DNA of 41,509 bases from positions 1 through 41,509 of the IMG/VR virus record IMGVR_UViG_3300014501_000174; one strand, 5' to 3'. The translations under genes were made by a program, and so were the position numbers. This document shows positions 11,870-37,432 of the stretch, in pieces. Positions within the stretch are counted from its first letter, which is position 1. Every line of letters starts with the position of its first letter. Under the pieces are notes generated by a model, which was given only the letters and a program-made list of their open reading frames with translations, was not told the DNA's origin and did no database searches. Origin of the DNA: a virus.

Positions 11870-12004
11870 ATGGCAAAGAAAAAAGTTGGTAGTGTGAAGC
11901 GCCTTGAAGGTATCGTCCACCATGATATGAACAAGGAGCATGGATGGACAAAGAAGGGCAAGACAGCGAAGGGTATGAATCGCAAGCGCACGGCGGGAAA
12001 GTAG
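11870..12004 (+). CDS. Lys-rich small protein (44 aa) with the R(T/V)AGK tail
   Basis: ATG 11870 is preceded by AAAGGAG. The product starts MAKKKVGSVKRLEGIVHHD and ends NRKRTAGK. It is strongly basic and probably disordered. The tail (K/R)R(V/T)AGK recurs at the C-termini of the proteins at 12013, 29836 and 30053, and as RVASKG at 37172, encoded by different synonymous codons each time. It lies between the terminator at 11830 and the next Lys-rich gene. A DNA-binding or virion-interior role is an inference from charge and location. Confidence 0.75.
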   Translation: MAKKKVGSVKRLEGIVHHDMNKEHGWTKKGKTAKGMNRKRTAGK

Positions 12005-12012
12005 GCTAACCG

Positions 12013-12198
12013 ATGCATACGAAAAAGCGTTCATCGTGGATGGACGACGGGGATGACGCGCACTTTGACGGCAACCCTGCGTACAGGAAGCATAACGCTA
12101 GGAAACATTTAGCTGCGTCTGGAAGAACGTTGCAATACGTAGGAAAAGGGAAAGCGCAGAAGAAGACAGCGGGTAAAAAGAGAGTGGCAGGAAAATAG
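12013..12198 (+). CDS. Lys-rich small protein (61 aa) ending KKRVAGK
   Basis: The first half has an acidic patch (WMDDGDDAHFDGNPAYRKH) and a helix-like ARKHLAASGRTLQYVG segment; the C-terminal 15 residues are basic and contain the motif twice (KKTAGKKRVAGK). SD is poor (GGCTAACCG), so translation may be coupled to the gene ending 8 bases upstream. It belongs to the same compositional group as the 11870 product. Function is unknown. Confidence 0.7.
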   Translation: MHTKKRSSWMDDGDDAHFDGNPAYRKHNARKHLAASGRTLQYVGKGKAQKKTAGKKRVAGK

Positions 12199-12210
12199 GG
12201 AGCATGGATG

Positions 12211-12744
12211 TCAATCGTAAGAAGAGCGCGGGAAATTCAGACAGGCGAATTCGCCGAAGTGCTTGATGGCCGCACGGTCATAGGCTCTCGCTGCATCCTC
12301 TGCATTCTTAAACCTTCCAAGCCAGATTTTTTTGCCATTAACTTTTATATTCGATTGGTAAAAACTCTGATAACCGACGCCCTTGTATCCAGTGGAATTA
12401 TTAGACTGCCTACGTCTATTCTGACCATTTTGAGTGGCAGTTGCTTCTCTAAGGTTAGAGCGGCGATTATCCAGAGAGTCGTGATTGATGTGGTCTACTT
12501 GATGCGCTGTGCTGAGAATCTCGCAGTGCATTTGGATAGTTCTACATTTTGCGGTTTTGCTAGCATTTCGTACCGCAACCCAACGCTTACTGCTCTTAAT
12601 GTACAGCGCACACCAATTCCAGTACATGAGCCATTCATAGTCGGCAGTATCGACGATGGCATTTTTTCCGCGAGTCAGTGGGATAAGGCGATAAGATGGA
12701 TCAAGCGGCTGGACAACATCATGTCTTGGCATGGTGCGTTTCAT
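12211..12744 (-). CDS. HNH endonuclease with AP2 DNA-binding domain (free-standing homing endonuclease)
   Basis: This is the only clear gene on the minus strand. Residues about 80-115 carry the HNH core: HQVDHINHDSLDNRRSNLRE followed by ATATQNGQN, with the His and Asn metal/catalytic positions intact. Residues about 118-172 form an AP2 domain (STGYKGVGY..., IWLGRFKNAEDAARAYDRAA). This HNH-AP2 arrangement is typical of mobile phage endonucleases. ATG 12744 has GAGGG at SD distance. It sits back to back with the adaptor-like gene's RBS and leaves both neighbours intact, so it looks like an intergenic insertion. A plus-strand open frame of similar span is its shadow. Length is 177 residues. Confidence 0.88.
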   Translation of the reverse strand: MKRTMPRHDVVQPLDPSYRLIPLTRGKNAIVDTADYEWLMYWNWCALYIKSSKRWVAVRNASKTAKCRTIQMHCEILSTAHQVDHINHDSLDNRRSNLREATATQNGQNRRRQSNNSTGYKGVGYQSFYQSNIKVNGKKIWLGRFKNAEDAARAYDRAAIKHFGEFACLNFPRSSYD

Positions 12745-12815
12745 AAGGAACCCTCATTCCTTGTGCGACTGTCCGCCGCACTATCTAATTTTACTACAAG
12801 TTGGGAGGCTGCGTA

Positions 12816-14063
12816 ATGGCCTTTCAAAACATGATCCAAGATGTCTTAGGAACTTTTGCAGGCATGAACAGGGGTCTTGCTGCCAGCAGAATTAACGAAG
12901 CATTCACTGCCATCCAAGACGAAAACATCTGGAATTTCCAGATCATCAATGGGGGTTGGTTGACGCCTAATATTCTAGGCAGTCCCAACGCTCAAAGCCA
13001 ACTCATAAGTCCGGGAACAATCTCCGTAGTCCCATTCACAAACCTAATCACGGGCGATGCGATAGCGACGGCGGCATGGACTGCAACTGTTCCTTATCCT
13101 CCGCTTTTGACGCAGATGCAGATTCGCATTCCTACCTACTCGTTATATTCCATCATGGCGCTAGGAAACAACGGAACGGTAGCCTATGCCACGATTCTTA
13201 CTGGCGGGTCTGCGCAGATCCCCGGTACATACGTTATACCAGTTCTTGACCCCGCAATAGGCGCAGGTGGAACAGTTTCGATCACCGTTAACTCCGATGG
13301 AACCGTGACACTTCCACCTGTCCTTTTGACGGCAGGCAGTGGATACACCACACCGTACATCGTCTTTGCTGAAGGTGGAACATCTGCCACATTCTCCGTT
13401 ACATTGATCGCCACATTGACGATTGATAGATTGTGGACAGAACCTCAACAAATAAACGGTAACTATTTATGCTATCAGGCGTACTACCCTGCGCCTCCCG
13501 GATTCCGCAGGTTCTGGTTTATCTCAGATTTCACGAATAACGCGCCTATAGATTTTACGAGCATGTCTCAGGCGGATTTGGCGCAGGAAGACCCACAGAG
13601 GACAATCTTTAGTCAGCCAGGATTCGCTGTGTATTTTGGACCTGATACCAGACAGGGAAGCGCAACTTACGGTCAGCAGCTCTATGAATTGTGGCGGGGG
13701 CCAACTTCGCAACTACCCTACACGTTTCAATGCCAATGCGATTGGCCGCTACTTCAAAATCCGACTGACACATTGCCTTATCCATTAAGTGAAGAATTGG
13801 TTAGACAGAGAGCTTATGAGATGTGCTGCCTTTGGAAAGAGGGTACCAAGGGCGACGACATGGAACGGGGATCAGGCGCAAATTGGCAGTTTCTAGCGAA
13901 AGCATACCACGAAGAATATGTGGATCGCCTCAAGAGAATCAGGATCATGGATCGTAACATTTCCGATCAGTATTTGACCAGAGCCAAGAGGAATATGCCA
14001 TTTAGCAACGACGGCGGTATGAACAATAACCACACGGCTAGTGTCGGATGGTTTGAGCGGTAA
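12816..14063 (+). CDS. Head-tail adaptor-like protein with an inserted GGxGY-P domain
   Basis: ATG 12816 follows GGGAGG (12803-12808) with ideal spacing. The N-terminus (MNRGLAASRINEAFTAIQDE, then NIWNFQ) and the helical C-terminus (VRQRAYEMCCLWKEGTKGDD, AKAYHEEYVDRLKRIRIMDR) look like the helical scaffold of podoviral adaptor/neck proteins. Between them, residues about 120-200 hold the beta domain LTGGSAQIPGTYVIPV...LLTAGSGYTTPYIVFAEGG, shared with the decoration-like protein at 10435. The chimeric build suggests a connector protein with an added surface domain. A functionally similar adaptor-like gene is at 30539. The exact connector position is not determinable here. Length is 416 residues from this start. 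Confidence 0.6.
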   Translation: MAFQNMIQDVLGTFAGMNRGLAASRINEAFTAIQDENIWNFQIINGGWLTPNILGSPNAQSQLISPGTISVVPFTNLITGDAIATAAWTATVPYPPLLTQMQIRIPTYSLYSIMALGNNGTVAYATILTGGSAQIPGTYVIPVLDPAIGAGGTVSITVNSDGTVTLPPVLLTAGSGYTTPYIVFAEGGTSATFSVTLIATLTIDRLWTEPQQINGNYLCYQAYYPAPPGFRRFWFISDFTNNAPIDFTSMSQADLAQEDPQRTIFSQPGFAVYFGPDTRQGSATYGQQLYELWRGPTSQLPYTFQCQCDWPLLQNPTDTLPYPLSEELVRQRAYEMCCLWKEGTKGDDMERGSGANWQFLAKAYHEEYVDRLKRIRIMDRNISDQYLTRAKRNMPFSNDGGMNNNHTASVGWFER

Positions 14064-14075
14064 AAGGAGAGTAGT

Positions 14076-14477
14076 ATGCCAGCTTACGCGGGACCAGGTT
14101 TAGCAGCACCATTATCGTCTAATCGCCAGATGTATTTTTGGCAGACCGAAACTGTTCCTGTCGCGTCATATCCTGGATCACTTAGTGTCGGGTATCAATT
14201 AGAACGAGTTCCAAACGTAGTTTATCCTTGGGGATTATCATTTGAACTTACATTCTCTGGAAATCCGGGAGCGTTTGAGATTGACATTCTTGGTGCGAAT
14301 GCTGATTATCCACAAAACTACGCATTTCTCGGAATGATTAACGCGGTGAATCTTTATTTGCCAGGATATTACGTTGGACGTTGGGATATGCCTTCGCAGA
14401 TGTGGCCTCGCTATGTAGCTGGTTACGTTAAGACGCTTACCAATGCGGTGAATGTGACGATGACGGTGACAAAATAA
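14076..14477 (+). CDS. Small structural protein (133 aa), unknown
   Basis: ATG 14076 follows AAAAGGAGAG. The protein is aromatic-rich and beta-rich (YFWQTETVPVASYPGSL, VVYPWGLSFELTF, AFEIDILGANADYPQNY, YYVGRWDMPSQMWPRYVAGY), like a compact jelly-roll or tail-associated beta sandwich. It has no signal sequence, unlike the next gene. The end NVTMTVTK is typical of a terminal strand. It lies between the adaptor and fibre genes, so a neck or tail-surface role is likely. No named family is recognised. Confidence 0.65.
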   Translation: MPAYAGPGLAAPLSSNRQMYFWQTETVPVASYPGSLSVGYQLERVPNVVYPWGLSFELTFSGNPGAFEIDILGANADYPQNYAFLGMINAVNLYLPGYYVGRWDMPSQMWPRYVAGYVKTLTNAVNVTMTVTK

Positions 14478-14486
14478 GGAGGCGCG

Positions 14487-17400
14487 ATGAAAAAGATAAT
14501 GCTAATGGCAATATGTCTTCTTGGATGCGCTTCTGCATGGGCACAGTCCTATCCTCCATTTCTCATGTATACGCTTATTGGTGGGGTTCCTACGCCAGTT
14601 TCAGGATCGGGAGCGGTACTTCCGGGTGGTAATCCTCCCGGATACCTTTGCTATGGATTGAACGGTAGCGGACAACCTGCGCCGTGCGTGTTTGGCGGAA
14701 TAGGAGTGACGAGTATCAACACTGTTGCTGGAGCATTTACATTTAATGGTCCCGCTGTAAGTTGCACATCCACAACATGCACATTTACTGGAACTGGGAC
14801 AGGTATTGGAAGCATTGCATGGGCGATTCCGTCTTGGCTTACTGCTTCTCCTACGACAATCTCTGCATCAGGTACACAAACGTTTTCGCCAACGACTGGA
14901 CAGACATCGCATGAGGTAATCGGAACTTGCGGGGCTGCAACTACTTTTGGTCCTTGCGCTCTAGTGGCTGGAGATTTACCTGCTGTGACGAATATAGCTG
15001 GTGGAGCAGCTAACGAGATTGTTTATCAGACAGCGACAAGTACCACAGGGTTTATAGCGGCTGCGGCAAGTTGTGTTCTCTCAACAAACGGAAGCAATGT
15101 ACCATCGTGTTCAACAACGCTTCCTAGCGGATTAAGTTCAACAAGCATGACGTTGGTCACGCCAGCGTTGGGAACTCCAGCATCGGGAGTGATTACAAAT
15201 CTTTCTGGTACGTGCGCATCTTGTAATATAGGAGGAAATGCGGGAACGGCAACTGATCTTTCTACGACAGGTTCTAATGGAACATTCTGGGGAGTATCTG
15301 GAGGGGTTCAGGGGTACTACACTCCGGGCGGGGGAGGTAACGTTTCTACGAGCGGCACCATCACCACAGGGCAGTATCCTGTCTGGGCCAGCGGTACCAC
15401 GCTAAATAGCCAGCCTTTCCAATACATCAGTGTCAAGAGAGATTATGCAGCCACAGGTAATACGCAGGTTGACACGACTTGCACAGTTACAGCCTCCAGC
15501 ACTACGCTTACTTGTTCTGACGGGCCTTTCGTTTCAGGCGACGTAGGCAAGACAATTGGAATACCTTACGCTGGACCAGTAGGGGCTTTCTATAGCATAG
15601 GTGAAACGCTTGTGACTACTATTGCTTCTTATAGTTCAGCCACAACGGTTGTGCTTACAGCAGCTCCATCAGTAAGCATAAGTGGTCCGTTTTCAAATAC
15701 TGGATGCAGTGCGTCTGCGTATTCTAAATCGTTGACTTGCTCTTCATCTACATTTACTCAGGGAGACGTTGGAAAATCCTTTACGACCCCAACAGGAAAC
15801 GCTGGTGCTAACAATTCCACTTCCGTTACGTCTCAGACCGAATACGCGACAAATGCTGGCGGCACAGTCATCACGGGTAATAGATACTATACTTCAGCAG
15901 TCAGCGGACAAAGCGTATCAATTCCCGGCGCGACAGTTATTTGGGGAACGGATGACACCACGGCTTTGAGCAACGCTTTCACTGCCGGGTGTTCTTCTGG
16001 TAGGCCGGTGAACCTGGACCCTGGTCGCTACCTGATGAGCAGTGGATTCTTGGTGTGCAGCGGTTTGTACATCATCGGATCAGGAGCCGGTGTTTCGATC
16101 CTGAATCCTGTCGGTAGTAGTTTCTCGCCCCTGTATAATCACAACACAGCAGGCACAAGCAATGAGGGCTACATATCCTTCGAGATCGACGCCCGTGGTG
16201 TAAGAGACAACACATTTGATGTCTATTCAAAAGGATTGGATATCACCAACCTAACCAACGCTTGGGTTGAGAACTTATATGTTCACGACACGGAAGCTAC
16301 AGGTTTGGCCACCGACTATCCGCACAATGTTTTCAAGTTCGCCAACCGCGTCGTTCACGCAGGCGCACAATATGTCGAATTGTTCGGGGCGATAGGTTCA
16401 GCTTGTTCTGGGGATGCTACTGGGTTCAATGACACCGAATCCGAGTACATCGGCTTCAACGATTTTTCCGACTGCGGTAATCGTGGTGTCTTTATCGAGA
16501 CCCAAGGTTCAAGCTACAGTAAGGGTTTTCGCATTGAGGGGAATACCTGCGAATGGTTGGACACTGGCGAAGGTGTTTGCTACGGAGATCACGGCGGAGA
16601 TCAGGCTATCTGGCAGGGGAATCTTGGTCGGTACTCTAAACTTTGTTTTGACGTTACGGGCGGTTTGAACGGAACCAGTTACCCACTTAACTGGGACTTC
16701 GACGGTAACGCCTGTGAATACAACGATCAGGGAGCAGCCATCAATTATGGCGACACTACTCTCGGTGCGGGCAGTGTAACCAACAACAAGTTCCTCGGTA
16801 GCCTCTCGCTAACCACGGGATCGATGCTCGGATTCACCGTCAATAACGGTTCCAGCACGGCTTCCCTTGAGGTCTCTGGAAACTTCCTCGACGACTACAC
16901 CGGGAACGGAATCAGTTTCGGTGGAAGCAACTCGTTCGGCTCGGTAAATCTTTCCTCAAACCACATTGCCAACATGGGCGTGAGCACAGGCTCCCTTAAC
17001 CCTGGCATTGTCGTTACTCAAAGCATCGGCAAACTGTCTATGACCGGAAATACAGCTTACGACACTCGCGGCGGGTCTGCCCAGCAAAGTTACGGATTCT
17101 CTCAAACGGCTGGGACTATAACCGAACTAGATGATAACGCAAACCAATTTACGGGGAACGCTACGGGAGCTAGGAACCTAGCTGGAACAATCACAACCTA
17201 CGACGTGAACGGAATCGCGGTGCCAGCGAGCACACAATGTTTACATATCAACAGTTCTGGAGTTACTTCCACCACCGGATCGGACTGCGGTTCGGGGAGT
17301 AGTGGACTTTCGGGCATGACCGCCACGCAGGTTCCGATTGCGGCGACAGCAACAACCGTGACGAGCAGTAAGGCGCTTGCGGGTAGTGGTACTGGTATCA

Positions 17401-18734
17401 CCACGGGGCCAATCACCACCACTAGCGGCGACTGCGTAGAGTTCTCTGGAACTGCTGGACAGATTGCCGACAATGGTTCTCCTTGCGGGTCAGGCAGCGG
17501 AGCCGTAACATCCGTTACGAACTCGGACGGGACACTTACAATTTCCCCAACGACTGGGGCGGTAGTAGCCTCACTTGCGCTTGCCCACGCGAACACGTGG
17601 ACCGGAAATCAGACAAGTGCGAAATGGATTGCGTCCACAGGATTCGATATAAGCGGAGCTACGACCGCTGGACACTATCTAAGAAATAACGGTACCGATT
17701 ACGTCGATAGCACCATTCAGTCTGGCGATCTGCCAGCAATTGCGTTATCGGGGTTAGCAACGCAGACTGCTAACACAGTTGTGGGCAACGGCACGAGCGG
17801 ATCGGCCTCTCCAACAGCCTTAACTATGCCTTCCTGTTCGGGCGCTTCTAATGCTCTTACTTGGACCACTAGCGGGGGGTCTACTGCTTTTGGGTGTAAC
17901 ACAATTAGTGGCGGAGGAACACCAGCATATCCGTTGACTATCACTGGAGGAGTTTCTGGTGGTGTAGTTTACGGAAGTTCGAGCACGCAACTCACCGTAT
18001 CGCCCGCAGGAACCGCTAACGTGCTGATGAAGTGGGGGGGCGCGGCGACTGCTCCTGGAAACTCTTCGATCACCGACAACGCAACGTCTGTGACCACAAC
18101 AGACACGGGTGGTTGGGTTGGTCCTACCTTTACAGCCAACGGAACGACTGCCGGGTTCATGGACTATGCGCAAGGTTCCACAAGCGCATCCGTAGCCCCA
18201 TGTAACACGGCAACGTCTATATGCGAGCAAGCGCCTACGTCTGTTACATCGTATCTACTTGTAAAACCGGGTGTTGCTGCGGCGGGCGTGAAGTCAGGGC
18301 GATTAGCAAGCAGTGTAGTAACGGAAGGAATCAGCGGCGATACTAACCATTCTGCAACTGTAGTTATCGGTTCTGGCACGTCGATAGGATCGACAAGCCT
18401 GTGCTCGACCACAGTTTGCCCAGCGGGTACTTATCGGATCAATGTCTACGTGGACATTACCACTGCTTGTGGAACTACGGGAACCTATACGGTAAATCTG
18501 ATCTATACGGACGATCAAGGATCAAAAACTTCCGTGGTCAACCTGAATGGCACAGGCTCAGTTCCTGCCACTGGACTTCTAACCACTACTTCGACTTCTA
18601 ACTTCGGACAGGAGTCACAGATCATCAGGTCAACGGGTGCGGCATCCATAAATTACTCCACAACAGCGGTAGCTTGCGGGACTGGCGGACCAATGGTGGG
18701 GAACCTTTATTTGAGCACGGAACAGGTGCAATAA
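14487..18734 (+). CDS. Large beta-helix tailspike/fibre-like protein with Sec signal peptide
   Basis: The 1415-residue product begins with a textbook Sec signal (MKKIMLMAICLLGCASAWAQ), which is odd for a tail protein that should assemble in the cytoplasm. Residues about 20-480 are Gly/Ser/Thr-rich fibre sequence with many paired cysteines. From about residue 485, WGTDDTTALSNAFTAG...VNLDPGRYLMSSGF...YIIGSGAG is the start signature of a pectate-lyase-type right-handed beta-helix, running to about 930; such domains are often receptor-binding depolymerases. A 66-residue module (17301-17497) is shared with the fibre at 19524. The C-terminal 180 residues contain TCGTTGTYTVNLIYTDDQGS and SQIIRSTGAASINY, typical of a trimeric end domain. 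SD AAGGAGG is strong. The alternative is that it is a secreted host-surface protein rather than a virion part. Confidence 0.7.
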   Translation: MKKIMLMAICLLGCASAWAQSYPPFLMYTLIGGVPTPVSGSGAVLPGGNPPGYLCYGLNGSGQPAPCVFGGIGVTSINTVAGAFTFNGPAVSCTSTTCTFTGTGTGIGSIAWAIPSWLTASPTTISASGTQTFSPTTGQTSHEVIGTCGAATTFGPCALVAGDLPAVTNIAGGAANEIVYQTATSTTGFIAAAASCVLSTNGSNVPSCSTTLPSGLSSTSMTLVTPALGTPASGVITNLSGTCASCNIGGNAGTATDLSTTGSNGTFWGVSGGVQGYYTPGGGGNVSTSGTITTGQYPVWASGTTLNSQPFQYISVKRDYAATGNTQVDTTCTVTASSTTLTCSDGPFVSGDVGKTIGIPYAGPVGAFYSIGETLVTTIASYSSATTVVLTAAPSVSISGPFSNTGCSASAYSKSLTCSSSTFTQGDVGKSFTTPTGNAGANNSTSVTSQTEYATNAGGTVITGNRYYTSAVSGQSVSIPGATVIWGTDDTTALSNAFTAGCSSGRPVNLDPGRYLMSSGFLVCSGLYIIGSGAGVSILNPVGSSFSPLYNHNTAGTSNEGYISFEIDARGVRDNTFDVYSKGLDITNLTNAWVENLYVHDTEATGLATDYPHNVFKFANRVVHAGAQYVELFGAIGSACSGDATGFNDTESEYIGFNDFSDCGNRGVFIETQGSSYSKGFRIEGNTCEWLDTGEGVCYGDHGGDQAIWQGNLGRYSKLCFDVTGGLNGTSYPLNWDFDGNACEYNDQGAAINYGDTTLGAGSVTNNKFLGSLSLTTGSMLGFTVNNGSSTASLEVSGNFLDDYTGNGISFGGSNSFGSVNLSSNHIANMGVSTGSLNPGIVVTQSIGKLSMTGNTAYDTRGGSAQQSYGFSQTAGTITELDDNANQFTGNATGARNLAGTITTYDVNGIAVPASTQCLHINSSGVTSTTGSDCGSGSSGLSGMTATQVPIAATATTVTSSKALAGSGTGITTGPITTTSGDCVEFSGTAGQIADNGSPCGSGSGAVTSVTNSDGTLTISPTTGAVVASLALAHANTWTGNQTSAKWIASTGFDISGATTAGHYLRNNGTDYVDSTIQSGDLPAIALSGLATQTANTVVGNGTSGSASPTALTMPSCSGASNALTWTTSGGSTAFGCNTISGGGTPAYPLTITGGVSGGVVYGSSSTQLTVSPAGTANVLMKWGGAATAPGNSSITDNATSVTTTDTGGWVGPTFTANGTTAGFMDYAQGSTSASVAPCNTATSICEQAPTSVTSYLLVKPGVAAAGVKSGRLASSVVTEGISGDTNHSATVVIGSGTSIGSTSLCSTTVCPAGTYRINVYVDITTACGTTGTYTVNLIYTDDQGSKTSVVNLNGTGSVPATGLLTTTSTSNFGQESQIIRSTGAASINYSTTAVACGTGGPMVGNLYLSTEQVQ
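17301..17497 (+). repeat. Fibre module, copy 1 (about 66 residues)
   Basis: It encodes SGLSGMTATQVPIAATATTV...SGTAGQIADNGSPCG. It is repeated with about 80% identical residues by eye at 21723-21917 in the neighbouring fibre gene, and the two copies use different synonymous codons. Confidence 0.85.
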
Positions 18735-19513
18735 TGAGAAATCTTTTACTTGTATTATTTCTTGGTTTATCGCAGGTAGGCGGTATTGGCGGATTCGGCG
18801 GCGTGGGCGGTGCTGGCGGCGGTCCCACGTCTACATGCACTCTGCCTACAAACCTCACTTATCGCTGGCTTCCCGCTCCGGGGTGCAGTACCAGTTCCCC
18901 GTGCATGACTGACACCGTGTCCGGGAATAACGCCTCGCAAACTATCAGCGGCGATCTGCCTACTTACAGTTCCACGGGGGGTGGAGCGAACGGAAACAAC
19001 TCTTATCTGACGTTCAACGGAACAAGCGACTATCTGATCCCGACCACGGCAATTCCAACGACCGCAAACGTCTACACCTTCTACGCGGTTTTCGAGTTAA
19101 CGACCGCAAGTGTAACCAACCCGCTGTTCGGTTCTAGTTCGGCGTATTCGACTCCCGGTGTGGTCTGGTACGTTACAAGCAGCAATCTTCTCCGAGACAG
19201 CAACAATGGGCCGGTATTCTACACCGGAACTAACACCTACTCATCAACAAGTACTTGGTATGCCGTGGCGGCTGAGTTCAGCGTTAGCGGCAACACTCAA
19301 AGCCTGTATAAATGTACTTCTGGCACTTGCACCGCCGACGGTTCGGGCGGAACTAACACATTCGGCGCAATCACAGCCACAACCAATTGGCTTGGCGCTT
19401 CTCAACTCTTAGGCCCCAACTTCCTGCACGCCAAAGTAAGTGAGTTTGGCTACTACAACGGAAACAGTTTAACCGGGCTTGGGGCCTACGTTAATTGTCA
19501 GTATGGAATTTAG
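18734..19513 (+). CDS. LamG-like (concanavalin-fold) protein with N-terminal hydrophobic export-type segment
   Basis: ATG 18734 overlaps the stop of the previous gene (TAATG), indicating coupling. Residues 1-15 (MRNLLLVLFLGLSQV) form a hydrophobic, signal-like segment followed by an all-Gly-rich linker (GGIGGFGGVGGAGGG). The rest matches the LamG/ConA-lectin pattern: NNSYLTFNGTSDYLIPTTAI, YTFYAVFELTT, WYAVAAEFSVSGNTQSLY and a final FLHAKVSEFGYYNGN strand. These domains bind or enclose carbohydrates. Cys pairs (CSTSSPC, CTSGTC) suggest an oxidised, extracytoplasmic environment. It lies between two signal-bearing fibre genes. Length is 259 residues. Confidence 0.65.
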   Translation: MRNLLLVLFLGLSQVGGIGGFGGVGGAGGGPTSTCTLPTNLTYRWLPAPGCSTSSPCMTDTVSGNNASQTISGDLPTYSSTGGGANGNNSYLTFNGTSDYLIPTTAIPTTANVYTFYAVFELTTASVTNPLFGSSSAYSTPGVVWYVTSSNLLRDSNNGPVFYTGTNTYSSTSTWYAVAAEFSVSGNTQSLYKCTSGTCTADGSGGTNTFGAITATTNWLGASQLLGPNFLHAKVSEFGYYNGNSLTGLGAYVNCQYGI

Positions 19514-19523
19514 GAGATTTGAA

Positions 19524-27947: not shown

Positions 27948-27994
27948 GATTCAGGGGGATCGCTACGAACAGAGTTAGACTTTGCTATCAGCAT

Positions 27995-28249
27995 TTGCTC
28001 AGCGTGATTGCGATACCTTTACGGTTCAATCATCTTCTACGCCAATTCTGCGATAACTGCGGAAGAACCAATTGGGGCATGTCGTGGTGGGATGATACCA
28101 CTCAAGTATGGGAATCTGTAGTGGGTAACGTTAATGATTTTCATCATGGGTGTTTTTGCCCTCAATGCTTTACCGCATTAGCCATAGCCAAGGGCATCTC
28201 TTTGGTGTGGAGGCCAGTTATAGATTGCCAAGATATTTGGGATAGATAA
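27995..28249 (+). CDS. Small Cys/His protein (84 aa), start uncertain
   Basis: The frame is open from 27929, but no ATG or clear SD is present; TTG 27995 or GTG 28004 are possible starts. The product has FCDNCGRTNWGM and HHGCFCPQCF, two CxxC-type pairs that could coordinate zinc, with aromatic residues (SWWDDTTQVWESVV) between. It follows the structured RNA candidate and precedes the HTH gene. It may be part of an otherwise regulated unit; function unknown. Confidence 0.5.
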   Translation: MLSVIAIPLRFNHLLRQFCDNCGRTNWGMSWWDDTTQVWESVVGNVNDFHHGCFCPQCFTALAIAKGISLVWRPVIDCQDIWDR

Positions 28250-28276
28250 GGCCACTTAGGATTTTTGAGGGATTAA

Positions 28277-29228: not shown

Positions 29229-29237
29229 GGAGTTGAA

Positions 29238-29756: not shown

Positions 29757-29791
29757 TGTAGAATACGAAAGACGGACCTTATCGGGAGAGG

Positions 29792-29819
29792 GGCGCAGGC
29801 TTAGGCTTGCGCCTTTTTT
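29792..29819 (+). terminator. Rho-independent terminator after the endolysin
   Basis: GGCGCAGGC (29792-29800) pairs with GCTTGCGCC (29805-29813) with one G-U, a TTAG loop, and TTTTTT (29814-29819). This is the strongest terminator in the window and ends the lysis block before the Lys-rich gene trio. Confidence 0.85.
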
Positions 29820-29835
29820 CGCGTAGGAGGATGAT

Positions 29836-30042
29836 GTGCCATCAAGTGAGGTTATGAAGGACTTTCGAGAAGGCCATCTTCACAGCGGCAAGAAGGTGAA
29901 GGGGAAGAAGCGCAATATCGTCAAGAACAAGAAGCAAGCGAAAGCGATTTTACTCAGCTATTTGAGACGCGAGGGTAAAATTGGTCCTCGTAAAAAAGGT
30001 AAGGGAAAGAATCATTCTAAGAAGCGGGTCGCTGGAAAATAG
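29836..30042 (+). CDS. DUF6496-like Lys-rich protein (68 aa) ending KKRVAGK
   Basis: GTG 29836 follows AGGAGG (29825-29830). Residues 4-50 (SEVMKDFREGHLHSGKKVKG, KNKKQAKAILLSYLRREGK) follow the pattern of DUF6496, a family of small phage proteins with V-M-x-x-F-x-x-G-x-L-H-S-G and K-Q-A-x-A-I. The C-terminus KNHSKKRVAGK carries the tail found on at least four other small proteins here. It is strongly basic. It starts the set of three such genes after the endolysin terminator. Its family suggests a small basic virion or DNA-binding protein; no biochemical role is established. Confidence 0.75.
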   Translation: MPSSEVMKDFREGHLHSGKKVKGKKRNIVKNKKQAKAILLSYLRREGKIGPRKKGKGKNHSKKRVAGK

Positions 30043-30052
30043 GAGAGAACTA

Positions 30053-30361
30053 ATGGCGCAAAGCACTGGTAACCAACAGGCAGATGATTTGGTGGATGCA
30101 GCTAAAGCTGGCCCACTGCGTAGGAAAATTGGCGGGTACGCTGACAAGGTTAGTGGCGCTGTTGATAGCGTCAAGGACGCATGGGAGGGCAGTCCTTTAA
30201 AGCAAGCGTACAACAAGTATGTGGGTGGTGGAAGTAGCGCCAAGGACGCTAAGAAATACGTTCCCGGTCAACGCGAGAAGGAACTTGGATTCACAGCCGC
30301 GAGGAATAACGCACCAACTAAGAAGGCTGCACCACGCAAGCGAGTAGCTGGAAAAAAGTAG
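30053..30361 (+). CDS. Small basic protein (102 aa) ending RKRVAGKK
   Basis: ATG 30053 follows AGGAGAG. The N-terminal half is helical and moderately acidic/Ala-rich (QADDLVDAAKAGPLRRKIGG, DKVSGAVDSVKDAWEGS), then KQAYNKYVGGGSSAKDAKKY; the end is Lys/Arg-rich and finishes APRKRVAGKK. It shares only the tail with its neighbours, so the tail is modular. Function unknown; possibly an internal or DNA-associated protein, given the gene neighbourhood of head/connector genes. Confidence 0.7.
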   Translation: MAQSTGNQQADDLVDAAKAGPLRRKIGGYADKVSGAVDSVKDAWEGSPLKQAYNKYVGGGSSAKDAKKYVPGQREKELGFTAARNNAPTKKAAPRKRVAGKK

Positions 30362-30379
30362 GACACAAGGAGAGTAATC

Positions 30380-30526
30380 ATGTTTGGAGAAATTGAATCA
30401 GCAGAGACCGAAGACGTTAAGAAGCCTAAGAAGCACAAGGTCGCTGGAAAAGGTAAAGGCAAGAAAGCCAAGAAGCATAGTAAGAAAAAGCACCATGCAA
30501 AGAAGAAGATTGCGACCAAAAAGTAG
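30380..30526 (+). CDS. Histone-H1-like Lys-rich mini-protein (48 aa)
   Basis: ATG 30380 follows AAGGAGAG. An acidic start (MFGEIESAETEDVKKP) is followed by a dense Lys/His tail (KGKGKKAKKHSKKKHHAKKK) with an internal KVAGK and the ending KIATKK, a degenerate form of the shared tail. It was too short and simple for a long ORF but has a good RBS and tight spacing to the next gene. The composition suggests binding to nucleic acid. Confidence 0.7.
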   Translation: MFGEIESAETEDVKKPKKHKVAGKGKGKKAKKHSKKKHHAKKKIATKK

Positions 30527-30538
30527 TAGACTGATTGC

Positions 30539-31864
30539 ATGGCTAACGGCAGCTTTTCTTGGTTGACGATGACGCAGGCTGTCCAGCAACTAGGGCAGAG
30601 GCTCAATGTCGTTCCGTCCGCAACCACACTATGGACGCCAGCGGAACTCGAAATCTACATCACAACTTCGCTGCGTCAGATGAACTCCCTATGTTGGCAG
30701 TGGAGGCAGGACTTTCAATATAACGATCCCGTCAATCTCTGGAATTCATTAGGTTCACTTGCTGGTAGCCCTAGACAGCGAACCCTATTCGATACAGATG
30801 CCTACATAGAAATGCAGTATCTTCTTTTGGAGCCGCCGTCAGGATCAGGGACGTGGACAGGAACTAATCAGTTCAATCTCAGTGTGATGTCTCAGGCTCT
30901 CCAGCGCCGCAGGGACGAAATGATTCAACTGGGAAATCTGAATCAAAGTCTTCTCACAGGAATACCACTAACGCCGAACACCATAAGAACCGAGTTGGAC
31001 GACCAAATAATTGACGTGGAGCGCGTGAGATACATCCCCGTAACAGGGAGTCCGAATACGCTTTATCGAGATGATACCATATCTCAGGAATTCTACGAAG
31101 CACCGCTTTACCAGCTTCAACCAGGAACGCCGCAAACGTTCTCTCTATCCTCTGAGCCGCCTCTATCGTGGCAGGTTGACATTCCTCCAGCCCAACCTGG
31201 AACCTACGAAGCTATCGTGTTGCAATCGGGAGCGCCGTTTAATCCTCCTACGCCGACGCTGATTGGCATCCCAGATGATTTTGTTTTTGTGTTGGAATTT
31301 GGCGCTTTAGCAGATTTGCTTGGCCAAGAGTCAGAGTCAACCGACCATGAGCGTGCAGATTATTGCATGAAGAGGTATCAGGAAGGTCTCGAACTGATGC
31401 TTAAAACTCCGTGGATCGGTCTCGGAAAAGTAAATGGAGTGGCTGTCAGTATTGATTCTATCTTCGCTTTGGATCAGTATGATGTTAACTGGGATTCAAA
31501 CCCAAGTGGCTTTGGACCTGTACTGGTAGCTGGAGGCGTTGACAATATCGCCGCACCTTTGGCGCAGGGCATAGGCGTAACCGTATTAGGCAATGCCCCA
31601 ATATTGGATAGCACGAACACTTGGGTGCAGATAAGCCGCCCTATGGCCGACACGATGTTCGATCTCGCACAGGCGCGGTGTATGTTTAAGTGCGGAGGTG
31701 GTGAGTGGAAAGCGGCTTTGGAACTTGAGAAGCGAGCTTTACAGGCGTGTGAGGCTGAGCGAGTACGCCTGATGAGTCAAGGTGCTTTCTCTGACTTCTT
31801 TGACGAGCGTGGCAGACAGCAAGAGCGCGACAGGAATCGGTACAACGCGGCCCATAAGAAATAA
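30539..31864 (+). CDS. Second head-tail adaptor-like protein (441 aa)
   Basis: The N-terminal helical part (MTQAVQQLGQRLNVVPSATT, AELEIYITTSLRQMNSLCWQ then WRQDFQ), a beta-rich middle (TLIGIPDDFVFVLEFGALAD) and a long helical C-terminus (MFDLAQARCMFKCGGGEWKA, ELEKRALQACEAERVRLMSQ) fit connector or adaptor proteins that plug onto the portal. The same N- and C-terminal plan is seen in the 12816 product, but I see no close alignment. SD is poor (no GGAG before ATG 30539), so it may depend on the Lys-rich genes upstream. It is the last gene before a promoter-like leader at 31865. Confidence 0.55.
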   Translation: MANGSFSWLTMTQAVQQLGQRLNVVPSATTLWTPAELEIYITTSLRQMNSLCWQWRQDFQYNDPVNLWNSLGSLAGSPRQRTLFDTDAYIEMQYLLLEPPSGSGTWTGTNQFNLSVMSQALQRRRDEMIQLGNLNQSLLTGIPLTPNTIRTELDDQIIDVERVRYIPVTGSPNTLYRDDTISQEFYEAPLYQLQPGTPQTFSLSSEPPLSWQVDIPPAQPGTYEAIVLQSGAPFNPPTPTLIGIPDDFVFVLEFGALADLLGQESESTDHERADYCMKRYQEGLELMLKTPWIGLGKVNGVAVSIDSIFALDQYDVNWDSNPSGFGPVLVAGGVDNIAAPLAQGIGVTVLGNAPILDSTNTWVQISRPMADTMFDLAQARCMFKCGGGEWKAALELEKRALQACEAERVRLMSQGAFSDFFDERGRQQERDRNRYNAAHKK

Positions 31865-31929
31865 TTTTGCGGTAGAATAAGGCATTACCTCACAAGGACC
31901 GGGAGCCGCGTGAGTCACGAAAGGTGACT
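31865..31929 (+). promoter_or_regulatory. Leader copy 1: TTTTGCGGTA / GACCGGGAGCC element with SD hairpin
   Basis: TTTTGCGGTA (31865-31874) leads into a TAGAAT -10-like box (31873-31878). GACCGGGAGCC lies at 31897-31907. AGTCAC (31913-31918) pairs with GTGACT (31924-31929), folding the AAAGGTGA SD into a hairpin just before GTG 31931. The same decamer and 11-mer recur at 36553-36596 with almost the same spacing (32 versus 33 bases). Confidence 0.55.
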
Positions 31930-31930
31930 T

Positions 31931-34900
31931 GTGCCCAATAGCGGACTAAATTTTCGCGGCCTTAATTTGGTCTCTCCGGTCAATAGATTAGCGGCAGGAT
32001 TTGCCACGGTCGCTGTCAACCTCAGAGCCTATTTCGCCGGTGGCGTCACCTTCCGCAATCTCCTTACTAATGCCATCTATACGCTAGGAGCAGCGGTCCA
32101 TACCCTGCGCAGGCTCAACGATCAGACTCCCAACGCACCTCCTAGCGGATTTTCGATCATCAACGGTGCAGGCACTGTTCTCTCCGCATGGAACTCGACA
32201 ATAGGCGTCAAGACTGTAGCTACAGGATTGAGTGGTAATCCTGTTTCGATGGTTCCTTTTCGTCCTAATACGTCCGTTCAAGCCGTGATGTATGTAGCGG
32301 ATTCGGCGGCTCAAGGCTCTGTGACCCTACATACTCAGTACCTTGGAGCAAATGCAAGCGGTCCTTCTGGTACACCTGTAGATTTTGTTTCCAATGGGAT
32401 GATGAAGGTTTCCTGCAATGATGGATATACAGGAACGCCTACACCTACTGCGGTGTGCTGGAAAATGGGTATACAGGAACCTGCCCTTGCACCTGATATT
32501 GCGACTTCAAACTCAATTGTTCCATTCGGGGAAGGTGGAGTAGGGAATCTTTTAGCGACAGCAATCCCTTGGACGAACTATCTCGGACAGAACACAGGAG
32601 GTTCTACTCCTTATAACTACGGGGAGGCGCTCGGTTATCCTCACCCAGTTTTAGGAAGAGATGGAACCGCTCCTTTCATTATTGACGTACAAAATGCAAC
32701 TACGGTGACGATCACTGCTCTTGCTCTGGACGGAACGGTGGTTATCAACGGGACTACGATAGCATCAGACGCGGCTTTGGCTGTAGCCGATCCATCAAGG
32801 GTGGTTGCGGGCGCTCCTGGCTATCCAGGTCAGTTCATTCAGGTCATCGGTACACCAGGATTTGCCACTGCCGCTTCCTACATTGTGGGCGCATTTACAG
32901 ACGGAAGCGGAACTGTTGTTCCGGCTGGCGTAGCGCCTCTTTATATTCCTAGCGTTGTTGATGTAGGAGTAGCGTTTGCAACATCGACCCCTATACCTGT
33001 GCCGTTTGGTGCCGTTGATTTCCAGGTTGGAGTAAATTCTCTTGGGGATCACTACACGTTAGGAACTCCACCGATAAACTCTGGACTTATAACCTTCCAA
33101 GGGACCGTAACCACGAACGCCCTTCCATCGGTCGTGTCTATCCTCGGTTCTCTGTCGCTTGGTTATTTCGACGATTCGCCCACATCTGGTCCAGTTTCTG
33201 CCTATATCTGGAAGAACGCTGATGATCCAGGTGGTTCAGGTCCAGTACGAAGCATTTCCGATGCTATTGGAACGACGGCAGGAAACTCGTTTATCTTCGA
33301 TTGCTCGTTTGGATCATCTGCTGTTCCGCCTCTTGCCGCAGGTATTCCCGGCCTTCCCGGTATCGGTTCTCCGACCGTACCAATGTTATGGACCACGTTG
33401 AGTCCTGAATCTGTTGCGACAGGAAGTAACGCTATCTTCGCTGCGCCGCTGATTAGAACGAATCCAACAAATACACAGTTTTCGAATTTCAACTTCTGTT
33501 TGACGGGAAATATTTACTTTCCTCAGGCGGGACAGTATTTATTCATCCTGACGAACCATGACGACTTTATTTGGGGAATCGGAGGAGGAGTAACGTTAGT
33601 TTCGGCAACTGTGTCTGGAAGCGGAGAAGGATCATCGGCTTCCATTTCTGGCTCTGGTCAGACGATCTCAGTGGTAAATGGACTGCCGCTTTTGCCTCGT
33701 CAGAATTATACAAGCGGAAACGGTGGAAACTACGGGAGAACCAACGTCATTATCAATGTGCCTTCCGCTGGAATCTACCCAATAGAAGTGGACTACGACT
33801 ACTGGTATCACTCAGGAAGAATCCTGTTGATTATGGCGACTCCTACGCCGTCAACTACCCCAAGCAATGCTACGATCATTCCACCACTTCCATCGAACGT
33901 CAGGCAGGAAACTCAGTACCGTTATGTATACAGGTCTTCGGCAACAGGAGCAACATCAAACCCGTCTCCTGAATCGACTGCTGAGACTATTCCTGTCGCC
34001 GCAAATACGATCACGTCCCTATGGTCTAACGATCCTCAAGTGGACGTGGTTGATTACTACAGAATAGATTCCACGGTTGCCAACTTTACCTACGTCGCGA
34101 CAGGACCAAACGACGATCTAGGCACGGTACCAGGAACCAATACACCTATTAGTGATTCGTTGACCGATACTGAATTAGGAACTCAATTACTAGACTACGA
34201 TAACTTTGAGCCTTTTCCTTCGATTGACCTTCCGCAAAAAGGAGTATGCAGTGTATCGGGCGGTGTTATTACTTGGGTTTCCGGTGGGGCGATAGGAGGA
34301 TCAGCAACAGGGTTTAACATCCGTTGGCTGGCAGGAACCGAGATTCTTATCGGTTCTCCTACATCCTTGGCCTACACATTCATTGCTAGACCGACATCGG
34401 GCACGAGCGTAACGATTCCTGGTGTGCCTGATGGAACTAACTTAGCCTACGAAATACCAGAGCCAATTCTTGCCGCTCAACCCCTTCCTTACATGTGGGG
34501 TCCGACAGACAATATCAACTTCGCCTACGCCGTAGGTGACCCGCTGAGGCCGGGGACGCTGTATTGGTGCAAGGGATCGAACTTGGATTCTGCGCCTGAT
34601 ACAAATCAACAGGACGTGACATCCCCAGACGAGGCTTTAGTCAACGGAGCAATTGCTGGTGGACTTGGCGTTTTGTTCTCGATTAAGAGGGCATGGTTGA
34701 TTTTGCCGAACTTCGCTTCTGCTGTGGCCACTGCCACAGGAACCACAGGATCAACATGGACATTGCAGGAATCTTCGATTACTCGTGGCTTGTATATCCC
34801 ACGTTGCGTATGCGTTTCGGGCGGAGGTTTGATCTTCTTCCGCGTTGACGATGGAATTCACATATCGTCTTACGGATCGGCATCGAAGTCTATAACTGAT

Positions 34901-35596
34901 GACAGCCTCTATCCAATCTTTAGCCACGAGAACGAGGACTCAGCGGGGAATCAGCCTGTAGCAATAACGAGGGAAGGCGTGACGATTTATCCACCTGACG
35001 ACACGCTCCCTCAGTTACAGCGTTTTTCGTTCAATAATGGGTACATGTACTATGACTACCAAGGAATAGACGGATTCCCTCACACGCTAGTGTTTGATGA
35101 GGCTGCAATGGGTTGGGTCTTGGATGTTCTTACTCCCCCCGCAACCATCCACGCGCCAAATGAAGGTCAGAGCCAGCAAGGAGTATTGGTAGGATGCAGC
35201 GATTTCAGTGTCAGACAGATGGCAAGCAATGGGACTGAGGTTATCACGGGAACGGTAATGTCGGCTGCGATAGGAGGAAAGGGCTATAATCACACTGGAA
35301 TGATGGTCATCGAATACAGTTCAACCTCGACCGTGACGCTGAATATTTATCCTGCAGATGAAGGGAACGGAAGCTACGGACCACCGACAATCACATTACC
35401 AAGTACAGGTGGAGCGTTAACGAAGTATTGGCTGAGACCTGGAGCGAACAAATATAAACTTTCATGGTTCCAGTTCTCAAGCACGGTTCCTTTTATTTTG
35501 AACTTCCAAGGATGCATCGCGTTCCAGAAGTCGTGGGGATCGAGTTCCGCCTATGATGAAATTCCAATCTTTGGCGGCGCAGGAGGAGAAGGATGA
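31931..35596 (+). CDS. Large tail/stabilisation-like protein with PA14-like domain (1221 aa)
   Basis: GTG 31931 follows AAAGGTGA. The N-terminus (LNFRGLNLVSPVNRLAAGFA, NLRAYFAGGVTFRNLL) resembles podoviral tail stabilisation/needle-hub proteins, where such conserved N-termini attach to the tail. Residues about 515-640 read like a PA14 domain: LTGNIYFPQAGQYLFILTNH with DDFIWGIGGG and a later IYPIEVDYDYWYHSGRILLI. Such domains often bind carbohydrates. Later parts contain propeller-like or Ig-like repeats (YRYVYRSSATGATSNPSPES). No membrane signal is seen, unlike the fibre genes at 14-24 kb. It is expected to be virion surface-exposed. Confidence 0.55.
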   Translation: MPNSGLNFRGLNLVSPVNRLAAGFATVAVNLRAYFAGGVTFRNLLTNAIYTLGAAVHTLRRLNDQTPNAPPSGFSIINGAGTVLSAWNSTIGVKTVATGLSGNPVSMVPFRPNTSVQAVMYVADSAAQGSVTLHTQYLGANASGPSGTPVDFVSNGMMKVSCNDGYTGTPTPTAVCWKMGIQEPALAPDIATSNSIVPFGEGGVGNLLATAIPWTNYLGQNTGGSTPYNYGEALGYPHPVLGRDGTAPFIIDVQNATTVTITALALDGTVVINGTTIASDAALAVADPSRVVAGAPGYPGQFIQVIGTPGFATAASYIVGAFTDGSGTVVPAGVAPLYIPSVVDVGVAFATSTPIPVPFGAVDFQVGVNSLGDHYTLGTPPINSGLITFQGTVTTNALPSVVSILGSLSLGYFDDSPTSGPVSAYIWKNADDPGGSGPVRSISDAIGTTAGNSFIFDCSFGSSAVPPLAAGIPGLPGIGSPTVPMLWTTLSPESVATGSNAIFAAPLIRTNPTNTQFSNFNFCLTGNIYFPQAGQYLFILTNHDDFIWGIGGGVTLVSATVSGSGEGSSASISGSGQTISVVNGLPLLPRQNYTSGNGGNYGRTNVIINVPSAGIYPIEVDYDYWYHSGRILLIMATPTPSTTPSNATIIPPLPSNVRQETQYRYVYRSSATGATSNPSPESTAETIPVAANTITSLWSNDPQVDVVDYYRIDSTVANFTYVATGPNDDLGTVPGTNTPISDSLTDTELGTQLLDYDNFEPFPSIDLPQKGVCSVSGGVITWVSGGAIGGSATGFNIRWLAGTEILIGSPTSLAYTFIARPTSGTSVTIPGVPDGTNLAYEIPEPILAAQPLPYMWGPTDNINFAYAVGDPLRPGTLYWCKGSNLDSAPDTNQQDVTSPDEALVNGAIAGGLGVLFSIKRAWLILPNFASAVATATGTTGSTWTLQESSITRGLYIPRCVCVSGGGLIFFRVDDGIHISSYGSASKSITDDSLYPIFSHENEDSAGNQPVAITREGVTIYPPDDTLPQLQRFSFNNGYMYYDYQGIDGFPHTLVFDEAAMGWVLDVLTPPATIHAPNEGQSQQGVLVGCSDFSVRQMASNGTEVITGTVMSAAIGGKGYNHTGMMVIEYSSTSTVTLNIYPADEGNGSYGPPTITLPSTGGALTKYWLRPGANKYKLSWFQFSSTVPFILNFQGCIAFQKSWGSSSAYDEIPIFGGAGGEG

Positions 35597-35706
35597 AAAA
35601 TCCAGTCACGCCAAGACGATGCTCACGTTGCGGGACGGTAGGCCATCAGCCGTTTCCTAATAACCTATGCCCTAGCTGTACTAAGTGGACGGAGAAAAAG
35701 AAATGA
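35593..35706 (+). CDS. Zinc-ribbon mini-protein (37 aa)
   Basis: ATG 35593 overlaps the previous stop (ATGA), and AGGAGAAGG precedes it. The product RRCSRCGTVGHQPFPNNLCP with SC next has two C-x2-C pairs (CSRC, CPSC), a clear zinc ribbon. It ends in a Lys tail. Its stop overlaps the next ATG. It is probably translated from the late transcript of the 31931 gene. Confidence 0.7.
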   Translation: MKNPVTPRRCSRCGTVGHQPFPNNLCPSCTKWTEKKK

Positions 35707-36536
35707 GCACTCCCACGGTTAATCGCTTTCCTTTTGAGCCACACATTGCCAAACTTGAGCCTCAAGTTCAATATGTCCTTAAGAATCTATGGAACGTTGC
35801 CTTTGATGCACAGAACGCTGTACCGATCTTAAAGGCTCAAATAGACGCAAATAAGAGTGCTGTAGCCTCTGTAACAAACACCGTAACCAACAACAGCACA
35901 GCAAGCGAAACGATTATCCAGCAAATCGTGAGCGCATACGGAACGGTGAATAACCAATCGGGCAACGTCGCATATTCTACAACCCAATCCGACGCCAGCG
36001 CGTTCATCATCCTGTCCGATGCGTCTCCTGTCGCGGTTAGCTTAACGGCGGCTCCGGTGATTACCCTCCCGTGGGCTTGTGTTTTGGTCAATGAGGGAGT
36101 CGGGTTAGTTACGGCCACACCCGCGTCTGGTACGATCAGCTATCCGAATAATATAGCGGCGGCTAGTATGCCTGTAGCGCAAGGACAAGCTGCCATTATC
36201 TGTTTTGACGGCACAAATTTCTTCTCTGTAATCATTGCTGTCCAGCCGCAGAATACGCCTTCAATCGTCCATCAGTGGATCACAGCATACAACTCGATAA
36301 CGGGCGTTTTCAGCCAGAGTCAACCAGCCGTAGGAGACGTAACAGGTGCGGCTCCAATCGCCTCACCGACGTTTACTGGAACCGTAACGGAACCTACTCC
36401 GCCAGTGCTCACCGCTGCTGTAACAGCGACTAGCGCGACAGCAGGAGCGGCATCTGCCTTACCCTTAACGCCGCTTGGTTACCTAGATTGGAGCGTTAAC
36501 GGCGTGACGGTCAAGGTTCCTTTTTACTCTGTTTAG
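35703..36536 (+). CDS. Tail fibre/adaptor protein (277 aa)
   Basis: ATG 35703 (GGAG upstream, within the previous stop) gives MSTPTVNRFPFEPHIAKLEP. A helical stem (QAQIDANKSAVASVTNTVTN-like) is followed by a beta region and then the fibre module VGDVTGAAPIASPTFTGTVT, also present as VTGAAPTASPTFTTQL in the 19524 fibre. The C-terminus ends NGVTVKVPFYSV, a common terminal signature for tail fibre proteins. It may be a fibre or a fibre-attachment protein. No signal peptide is present. Confidence 0.65.
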   Translation: MSTPTVNRFPFEPHIAKLEPQVQYVLKNLWNVAFDAQNAVPILKAQIDANKSAVASVTNTVTNNSTASETIIQQIVSAYGTVNNQSGNVAYSTTQSDASAFIILSDASPVAVSLTAAPVITLPWACVLVNEGVGLVTATPASGTISYPNNIAAASMPVAQGQAAIICFDGTNFFSVIIAVQPQNTPSIVHQWITAYNSITGVFSQSQPAVGDVTGAAPIASPTFTGTVTEPTPPVLTAAVTATSATAGAASALPLTPLGYLDWSVNGVTVKVPFYSV

Positions 36537-36552
36537 TGTTGCGCTATCGGCG

Positions 36553-36632
36553 TTTTGCGGTACAATGATGGATGTTGAGCATGGCGACCGGGAGCCAGCC
36601 GTACTCTAAAAAACAACTTGATGTAAGTTGTT
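36553..36632 (+). promoter_or_regulatory. Leader copy 2: TTTTGCGGTA / GACCGGGAGCC element with hairpin
   Basis: TTTTGCGGTA (36553-36562) overlaps TACAAT (36561-36566). GACCGGGAGCC is at 36586-36596. AACAACTT (36612-36619) pairs with AAGTTGTT (36625-36632) 1 base before the SD AAAGGAGGG (36634-36642). The layout matches the leader at 31865-31929; only the hairpin sequence differs. Confidence 0.55.
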
Positions 36633-36645
36633 GAAAGGAGGGCAC

Positions 36646-37158
36646 TTGGGGTCATTTTTTAGCGCGTTATTCGGGGGAAGTTCGGCTAACCTTAACGAAA
36701 ACATCGGAAAAACAGGTCAGATTGCCGGATTTGATACCAGTTTAGGCGAGAGCAACGCAACCGCTGGCAGCGATTTCAATAAGGCCATCGTCAGTGGGGA
36801 TGCGACCAAGACCAGTCAGGTTTTGGCACCAGTTATTTCTGCCGCGAAGACCTCCAATCAACAGACCCAAAAAACAAATGCAGAGATGGGGACGCGCTCA
36901 GGCGGGACGGCTGCGACAAACGCGGCCTCTAGTGATAAGCTCCACTCTGATATAACCAACCTTACAGGGAGTCTTACAGGTAAGGCTGCGGATACGCTAT
37001 TGAGTTCTGGTAGCACGTTCTTGGGTCAAGGCGAGGCTGCGAACATGGACAATGCTAACTTAGGGCAACAGCAGTACCAGAACTGGATGGATTCTATCGC
37101 TGGAAAAGGAATCACGACAGCGGTTTCTGCGGCAGAGACATACGCACTTGGCGGTTAA
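36646..37158 (+). CDS. Internal virion/ejection-type protein (170 aa)
   Basis: AAAGGAGGG places the start at TTG 36646 (product GSFFSALFGGSSANLN); an upstream TTG 36628 would lie inside the hairpin. The N-terminus has a hydrophobic, Gly-rich amphipathic segment, then an Ala/Ser/Thr-rich helical body (NQQTQKTNAEMGTRSGG). Small proteins of this type often precede the ejection proteins of podoviruses and enter the cell with DNA. The neighbouring 37172-41360 genes support such a cluster. No specific family can be named. Confidence 0.6.
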   Translation: MGSFFSALFGGSSANLNENIGKTGQIAGFDTSLGESNATAGSDFNKAIVSGDATKTSQVLAPVISAAKTSNQQTQKTNAEMGTRSGGTAATNAASSDKLHSDITNLTGSLTGKAADTLLSSGSTFLGQGEAANMDNANLGQQQYQNWMDSIAGKGITTAVSAAETYALGG

Positions 37159-37171
37159 GAAGGAGAGAATC

Positions 37172-37432
37172 ATGGCAAATGATGATGCGTGGCAAGCGGG
37201 AGTGGACATCGCAACGAAACATAAGGACGACAAAAAGAAGAAAAGCGATCTACTTCACCAACCTACCCCAGCAGGAGTAGCCAACCCTTCTTCGTTTAAG
37301 AAGGGCGGTAAGGTAAAAAAAACTGGCGTTGCCAAAGTTCACAAACATGAAGTCGTTTTAACGGCAAAACAGGCTAAGCAATATGGCAAAAAGAAAGCCA
37401 GCACTAAGAAGCGCGTTGCATCAAAGGGGTAG
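37172..37432 (+). CDS. Basic virion-associated protein (86 aa) ending KKRVASKG
   Basis: ATG 37172 follows AAGGAGAG. It joins three recognisable pieces: an N-terminal motif MANDDAWQAGVDIATKHKDD also found at the start of the next protein (MADSQAWAEGAAIGSERAKE); a GGKVKKTGVAKVHKHEVVLT segment of the kind found near phage structural protein ends (G-x-A-x-V-H-x-x-E-V-V-L); and the basic tail STKKRVASKG, a variant of the RVAGK tail. It has no TM or signal. It links the Lys-rich small-protein group physically to the ejection genes. Confidence 0.7.
   Translation: MANDDAWQAGVDIATKHKDDKKKKSDLLHQPTPAGVANPSSFKKGGKVKKTGVAKVHKHEVVLTAKQAKQYGKKKASTKKRVASKG

Follow-up and report, generated by a model that had tools for sequence, protein, structure and literature searches.

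Why should small proteins with unrelated bodies, encoded at separate places in one phage genome, end in the same few residues? The question is raised by a 41,509-nt stretch of viral DNA (IMG/VR virus record IMGVR_UViG_3300014501_000174, the whole of which is referred to below as the window), in which a series of Lys-rich proteins close on KRVAGK or a variant of it. Five such tails had been listed in a preliminary description (RKRTAGK, KKRVAGK, KKRVAGK, RKRVAGKK and KKRVASKG), and all five were read exactly at their stop codons, within the longer ends NRKRTAGK, AGKKRVAGK, SKKRVAGK, APRKRVAGKK and STKKRVASKG. The internal KVAGK reported for the product of 30380-30526 was also found (30437-30451), and this product carries a sixth tail, KKIATKK (in an AKKKIATKK end), that had gone unlisted. 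The bodies fell into separate BLAST clusters after tail removal and in this sense are unrelated, as had been claimed. The view that the tail is a common functional tag on unrelated proteins is well supported, and the evidence points, more tentatively, to a packaging signal, that is, a C-terminal docking tag that would bring Lys-rich proteins to one virion partner.

Within the virion module, the tail-bearing genes keep to four fixed positions: before the scaffold gene (slot 1, with a tail of its own, SAIKA), between g11 and g14 (slot 2), between the endolysin and the adaptor (slot 3), and before the ejection-like genes (slot 4). The siting beside major capsid protein (MCP)/head, adaptor-like and ejection-like genes, described earlier for the window, was confirmed and recurs in relatives. 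The six window genes concerned are as follows (SD, Shine-Dalgarno sequence).

11870-12004, plus strand: 44-residue Lys-rich protein, ATG start with SD; tail RKRTAGK at 11981-12001; slot 2, on the 3' side of the MCP block.
12013-12198, plus strand: 61-residue protein of the DDAHFDGNPAY family, ATG start; tail KKRVAGK at 12175-12195; slot 2.
29836-30042, plus strand: 68-residue DUF6496 protein, GTG start; tail KKRVAGK at 30019-30039; slot 3, the interval between the endolysin and the adaptor-like gene.
30053-30361, plus strand: 102-residue protein, ATG start; tail RKRVAGKK at 30335-30358; slot 3.
30380-30526, plus strand: 48-residue Lys-rich protein of the FGEI family, ATG start; internal KVAGK and variant tail KKIATKK at 30503-30523; slot 3.
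37172-37432, plus strand: 86-residue protein of the NDxAWQAG / GGKVKKTG family, ATG start; tail KKRVASKG at 37406-37429; slot 4, immediately 5' of the ejection-like genes.

A purine-rich ribosome site was clear before most of the six starts, and for 30053-30361 the ATG at 30053, which has an SD, was preferred over TTG 29981.

Relatives were collected from IMG/VR with profiles of the MCP (35 loci), the adaptor (5 loci) and DUF6496 (31 loci, some outside the lineage), and about 30 contigs were taken whole or in large part for gene calling by a codon-plus-SD dynamic program, which recovered the window genes well and missed some small genes in distant contigs. From the structural module, 105 small proteins were obtained, all distinct and with a Lys+Arg content of 20% or more; they formed 33 families (BLAST clusters, compared without the last 8-10 residues). 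A strict tail, defined as [KR]RVAGK followed by at most two more residues, ended 22 of the 105 proteins and was present in 11 of the 33 families, across about 40 related IMG/VR contigs. When the last 20 residues were shuffled (2000 rounds), the mean was 0.002-0.012 strict tails and the maximum one; taking one protein per cluster, 7.6 strict tails stood against 0.001 in shuffles. The tail is thus enriched over composition-matched Lys-rich controls, one of the two comparisons that the preliminary description had named as able to refute its claim, and this one did not refute it. When all 120 orders of R, V, A, G and K were counted at protein ends, RVAGK occurred in 11 families, KRVAG in 11 (the identical tail, shifted by one residue), VAGKR in one and the rest in none. 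The larger proteins of these phages, 237,243 residues in total, had no RVAGK.

At the DNA level, the pattern encoding K-R-V-A-G-K was matched about 40 times in the records fetched for the group, and its reversed control not once. Among the 2.9 million viral contigs of IMG/VR, KKRVAGK-stop was found in 7 stretches and RKRVAGK-stop in 16; all in-frame, gene-like matches belonged to this phage group, the others being very short frames or KSVAGK, and a codon-permuted control (KKGAVRK-stop) had no match there. Relatives of 136, 138 and 121 kb carried no strict tail outside the virion module; two variant tails outside it (RKRTSSK and VARKRIPKK) were on homologues of module proteins.

Alignments showed a recurrent architecture of a conserved head, a basic linker variable in sequence and length, and a conserved tail of the form B-B-[VI]-[AST]-[GST]-K. 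In the DDAHFDGNPAY family (13-member alignment) head and tail were conserved and the linker could not be aligned, and the eight aligned members of the NDxAWQAG / GGKVKKTG family ended in RVASKG, RVSSKG, RIASKG, RISSKR or RVARKA. Alignable relatives of 30053-30361 had the tails KRVATKR (G009 48704), KRVAGTK (G001 11769), KRVAGKQ (G011 and G035), KRVASK (G036) and KRIEGK (G022), and FGEI-family homologues of 30380-30526 ended in KKIASKG (G001) and KKIAAKK (G041). The body encoded by 11870-12004 had no BLAST relative among the called genes; its slot was filled in L008/G006 by 8427-8546 (MAKKKHKTSDAGAKRIEG...KKRVAGK). Strict KRVAGK coincided with the 18-row MCP clade that includes the window (support 100/100), plus G042 of the separate G041/G042 branch, and sister clades kept the general pattern (KKVAVKK and KRISSKR in the clade at 63% MCP, KKISGK and KRIATKK in that at 57%). 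As the non-basic positions (V/I, A/S/T, G/S/T) are kept in sister clades, charge alone is insufficient to account for the tail.

One protein family could be compared inside and outside the lineage. The product of 29836-30042 matched PF20106 (DUF6496) with an E value of 1e-6 and 29.5 bits, above the gathering cut-off of 24, and its AlphaFold model had helices at residues 5-12 and 32-46, with residues 47-68 unstructured. Assignment to the lineage rested on MCP and adaptor matches and took no account of the tail. Within the lineage, 9 of 11 DUF6496 proteins carried the strict pattern and the other two near variants (KRVVSKQRSRR and KKISVSK), as against none of eight from unrelated phages; the Fisher p value of 0.0007 is indicative only, because the regular expression was composed after many tails had been seen. 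Plain basic ends were seen in two distant members of the lineage. Among the fetched DUF6496 proteins the tag was limited to members within this phage lineage, so the tail tracks virion type or phage lineage and not protein family, which fits a docking tag for a lineage-specific partner.

Lineage tracking, together with a conserved non-basic core in a flexible end, is best explained by a docking motif for a lineage-specific partner; from the position of the genes, this partner is likely to be a virion component and the outcome encapsidation. This podovirus lineage of soil phages makes a changing set of small Lys-rich proteins alongside its structural genes, at least a dozen of them otherwise unrelated. 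Each combines a head domain of its own with a flexible basic linker and the tag B-B-[VI]-[AST]-[GST]-K (KRVAGK in the clade of the window). A single component of the virion, specific to the lineage (the scaffold, the inner surface of the capsid or the portal complex), would bind the tag and draw the proteins into the prohead, where the Lys-rich bodies would lie on packaged DNA or leave with ejected DNA. Of the original proposal of a docking or packaging tag, the common tail on unrelated bodies, the selection on protein and the virion-module siting were supported, as was enrichment; encapsidation, the partner and contact with DNA are our inference, and a packaging signal is put at somewhat less than an even chance.

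Several observations weigh against this proposal. The motif also occurs away from the C-terminus, internally in three families and near the N-terminus in one, and the need for a free C-terminus may therefore not be strict. Some Lys-rich families of the module end otherwise (SAIKA, TILK, FALKK), and the tag is therefore either not universal or degenerate; the distant relatives Tunturi_1, G044 and G057 have basic ends that lack the motif. Basic tails are also typical of DNA-binding proteins, the DUF6496 and general-motif patterns were composed after some tails had been viewed, and the paper on the cultured Tunturi phages (PMC11924767) contains no text on sodium dodecyl sulfate-polyacrylamide gel electrophoresis or mass spectrometry. 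Neither KRVAGK nor DUF6496 was mentioned in the collection of papers searched.

The nearest working parallels to such a packaging tag appear to be the internal proteins of phage T4 and the cargo peptides of encapsulins. The capsid-targeting sequence of T4 is N-terminal and is cleaved off by the gp21 prohead protease; here no prohead protease turned up among the genes scanned, although no systematic protease search was made. Like the KRVAGK tail, the T4 signal is a common short sequence on otherwise diverse small phage proteins, but the motif described here is C-terminal in 11 families and N-terminal in one, and it is a basic motif, with a proposed packaging role, in podovirus-like genomes. Apart from the conserved capsid-targeting sequence, T4 internal proteins are diverse, and their Lys residues contact packaged DNA (PMC3012670). 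The encapsulin cargo-loading peptide is short, conserved and C-terminal, is found on unrelated cargo proteins whose genes adjoin that of an HK97-fold shell, and is sufficient for loading (PMC7355545). As in encapsulin systems, a C-terminal peptide is common here to unrelated proteins encoded near the shell gene; encapsulin peptides, by contrast, fit a hydrophobic luminal pocket, whereas the KRVAGK tag is basic with a core of V/I and two small residues, and the shell here is a phage capsid built of MCP and containing DNA. Because T4 signals are N-terminal and encapsulin peptides bind a hydrophobic pocket, the tag was assigned to neither system.

If the tail is indeed a packaging tag, it would provide a portable genetic address, six residues long and C-terminal, with which proteins could be loaded into a phage head. 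Besides T4, this would then be a second example of diverse phage proteins that have nothing but a targeting sequence in common. The set of internal or ejected proteins of an almost unstudied lineage (likely Acidobacteriota phages) would become identifiable from sequence alone, and the function of anonymous small Lys-rich genes, DUF6496 included, would become testable.

The main rival to packaging is nucleic-acid binding: the tail would be conserved for contact of DNA or RNA (the packaged genome or another nucleic acid), in the manner of protamines or histone H1, and would have no protein partner. In favour of such a role are the strongly basic character of bodies and tails alike (net +9 to +20), the presence of motif copies inside some proteins, and the contacts that Lys residues of T4 internal proteins make with DNA phosphates (PMC3012670); V-A-G and the terminal position are nevertheless conserved far better than the equally basic linkers, and within DUF6496 the tail tracks the phage lineage, which leaves nucleic-acid binding as a serious but unlikely explanation. 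In a narrower form of it, the tail would mimic the C-terminus of ribosomal protein uS13, which is likewise basic (Thermus ...RKGPRKTVAGKKKAPRK). The Thermus tail (RKTVAGKKKAPRK) has VAGKK in common with the phage proteins; VAGK was present in none of four uS13 tails read from other bacterial genomes (no Acidobacteriota among them), and the resemblance is retained as a lead.

A function other than packaging would be to serve as a recognition site for an enzyme of host or phage (a protease, adaptor or chaperone), or to protect the C-terminus against degradation, and the preliminary description had named a protease/adaptor site as an option. Degrons and protease sites are also short, exact C-terminal peptides on unrelated proteins, but the analysis yielded no positive evidence for such a site, the tail is restricted to virion-module genes, and in 85,000 prokaryote genomes (257 Gb) KKRVAGK-stop was found in only 40 scattered stretches, three of them in open frames of more than 40 residues; we consider this explanation improbable. 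None of these matches was in an Acidobacteriota record, and on these counts a bacterial host motif was rejected.

It is more improbable still that the tail is a functionless 3' cassette spread neutrally by recombination among neighbouring genes. One real exchange was found, a cassette with two KRVAGK copies (KKRVAGKKTGGVHKQGMSTVGGKKR..KKRVAGK) that ends three different bodies (G008 31623, G015 1408 and L031 7199). Tail pairs from different families, by comparison, had 1.64 of 5 codons identical, against 1.52 expected from codon usage, and the Arg, Val, Ala and Gly codons of strict tails were mixed much as genome-wide. Since the peptide is kept while codon identity is near expectation, selection acts on the peptide and not on DNA, as had been proposed. 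Most tail copies are thus not recent DNA copies; they are either old and held by selection or converged, and DNA-level copying as the main cause is largely refuted. Chance likeness of low-complexity ends, which the composition of these proteins (20-48% Lys+Arg) might have suggested, is refuted by the shuffles (about 0.002 against 22), the counts of RVAGK orderings and the permuted and reversed DNA controls, and is so improbable that it can be set aside.

A wider version of the packaging proposal is a lineage-wide C-terminal address code, in which almost all of the module's small Lys-rich proteins would be tagged B-B-x-small-x-K (for example KRVAGK, KRVASKG, KKIATKK, KKVAVKK, SKKSAIKA and HKTILK) and recognised by one receptor, or a few, in the virion, which would let head domains swap freely with packaging kept. 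A degenerate pattern of this type, composed after the tails had been seen, ends 82 of the 105 proteins against about 4 in shuffles; we regard the address code as a speculative extension and rather unlikely. The window contains one further small gene of this kind, in slot 1.

6945-7052, plus strand: 35-residue Lys/Arg-rich protein, between g5, on the portal side, and the scaffold gene; N-terminal HVGGK and a tail of its own, SKKSALKI.

Its family has 16 members across the group, with an N-terminal HRVAGK-like motif and tails of the form (S/H)KK(S/L)AIKA. The gene is below the 40-residue limit of the open reading frame list and was therefore missed there.

The phage lineage was placed by its capsid gene and gene order, and the landmark is as follows.

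9105-10370, plus strand: major capsid protein (PHROG major head protein, E value 1.7e-5).

Other landmarks of the window are a terminase, a P22-like portal and a GH108 endolysin. The window MCP matched the major head protein of Tunturi_1 (E value 9e-26, 98% coverage, 24.6% identity), and the only cultured relatives found were the Tunturiibacter (Acidobacteriota) phages Tunturi_1 and Tunturi_2, which share with the window the order terminase, portal, MCP, endolysin, small Lys-rich genes, adaptor and large virion protein; an Acidobacteriota host is therefore likely. The small Lys-rich proteins of these two phages end in KKSGAKK or KKKDCK, in contrast to the KRVAGK type of the window. Short-tailed virions are known only for Tunturi 1-3 (PMC11924767). 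An MCP search with the window protein alone gave no match, nor did PDB profile searches with MCP and adaptor; BLAST of the small proteins against INPHARED gave none either, probably owing to low-complexity masking. No prophage was found in GTDB genomes and no Rfam families or tRNAs in the window, and structure prediction for the adaptor was of low confidence (predicted local distance difference test, pLDDT, 32.7).

Some minor observations concern single records and genes. In L166 (Spirochaetia UBA5368), a bL36-like open frame ends in KQRQKKRVAGK, an exact tail that is probably a coincidence. L128 (IMGVR_UViG_3300043811_000021) encodes at 2964-2569, on the minus strand, a 120-residue protein (...ALGIR) whose TGA overlaps an ATG that may be the start of a following frame; KTTRKRVAGK-stop follows in frame right after this TGA, which could reflect a nonsense change or stop readthrough that adds the tail. 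The stop codon was TAG in 17 of the 22 strict-tail genes, compared with about 22% of all called genes, and several such TAG stops in the window overlap into the GGAG site of the next gene. The terminase frame (approximately 118-980) contains an intein-like insert (CLDPDTKVLT...GGFIDGEGS...VSHNC), and G006 and G008 align only 3' of it. An HNH/AP2-like homing endonuclease frame (12744-12211, minus strand) separates the slot-2 proteins from g14, and a second endonuclease-like frame (8441-9085) lies in the interval between scaffold and MCP.

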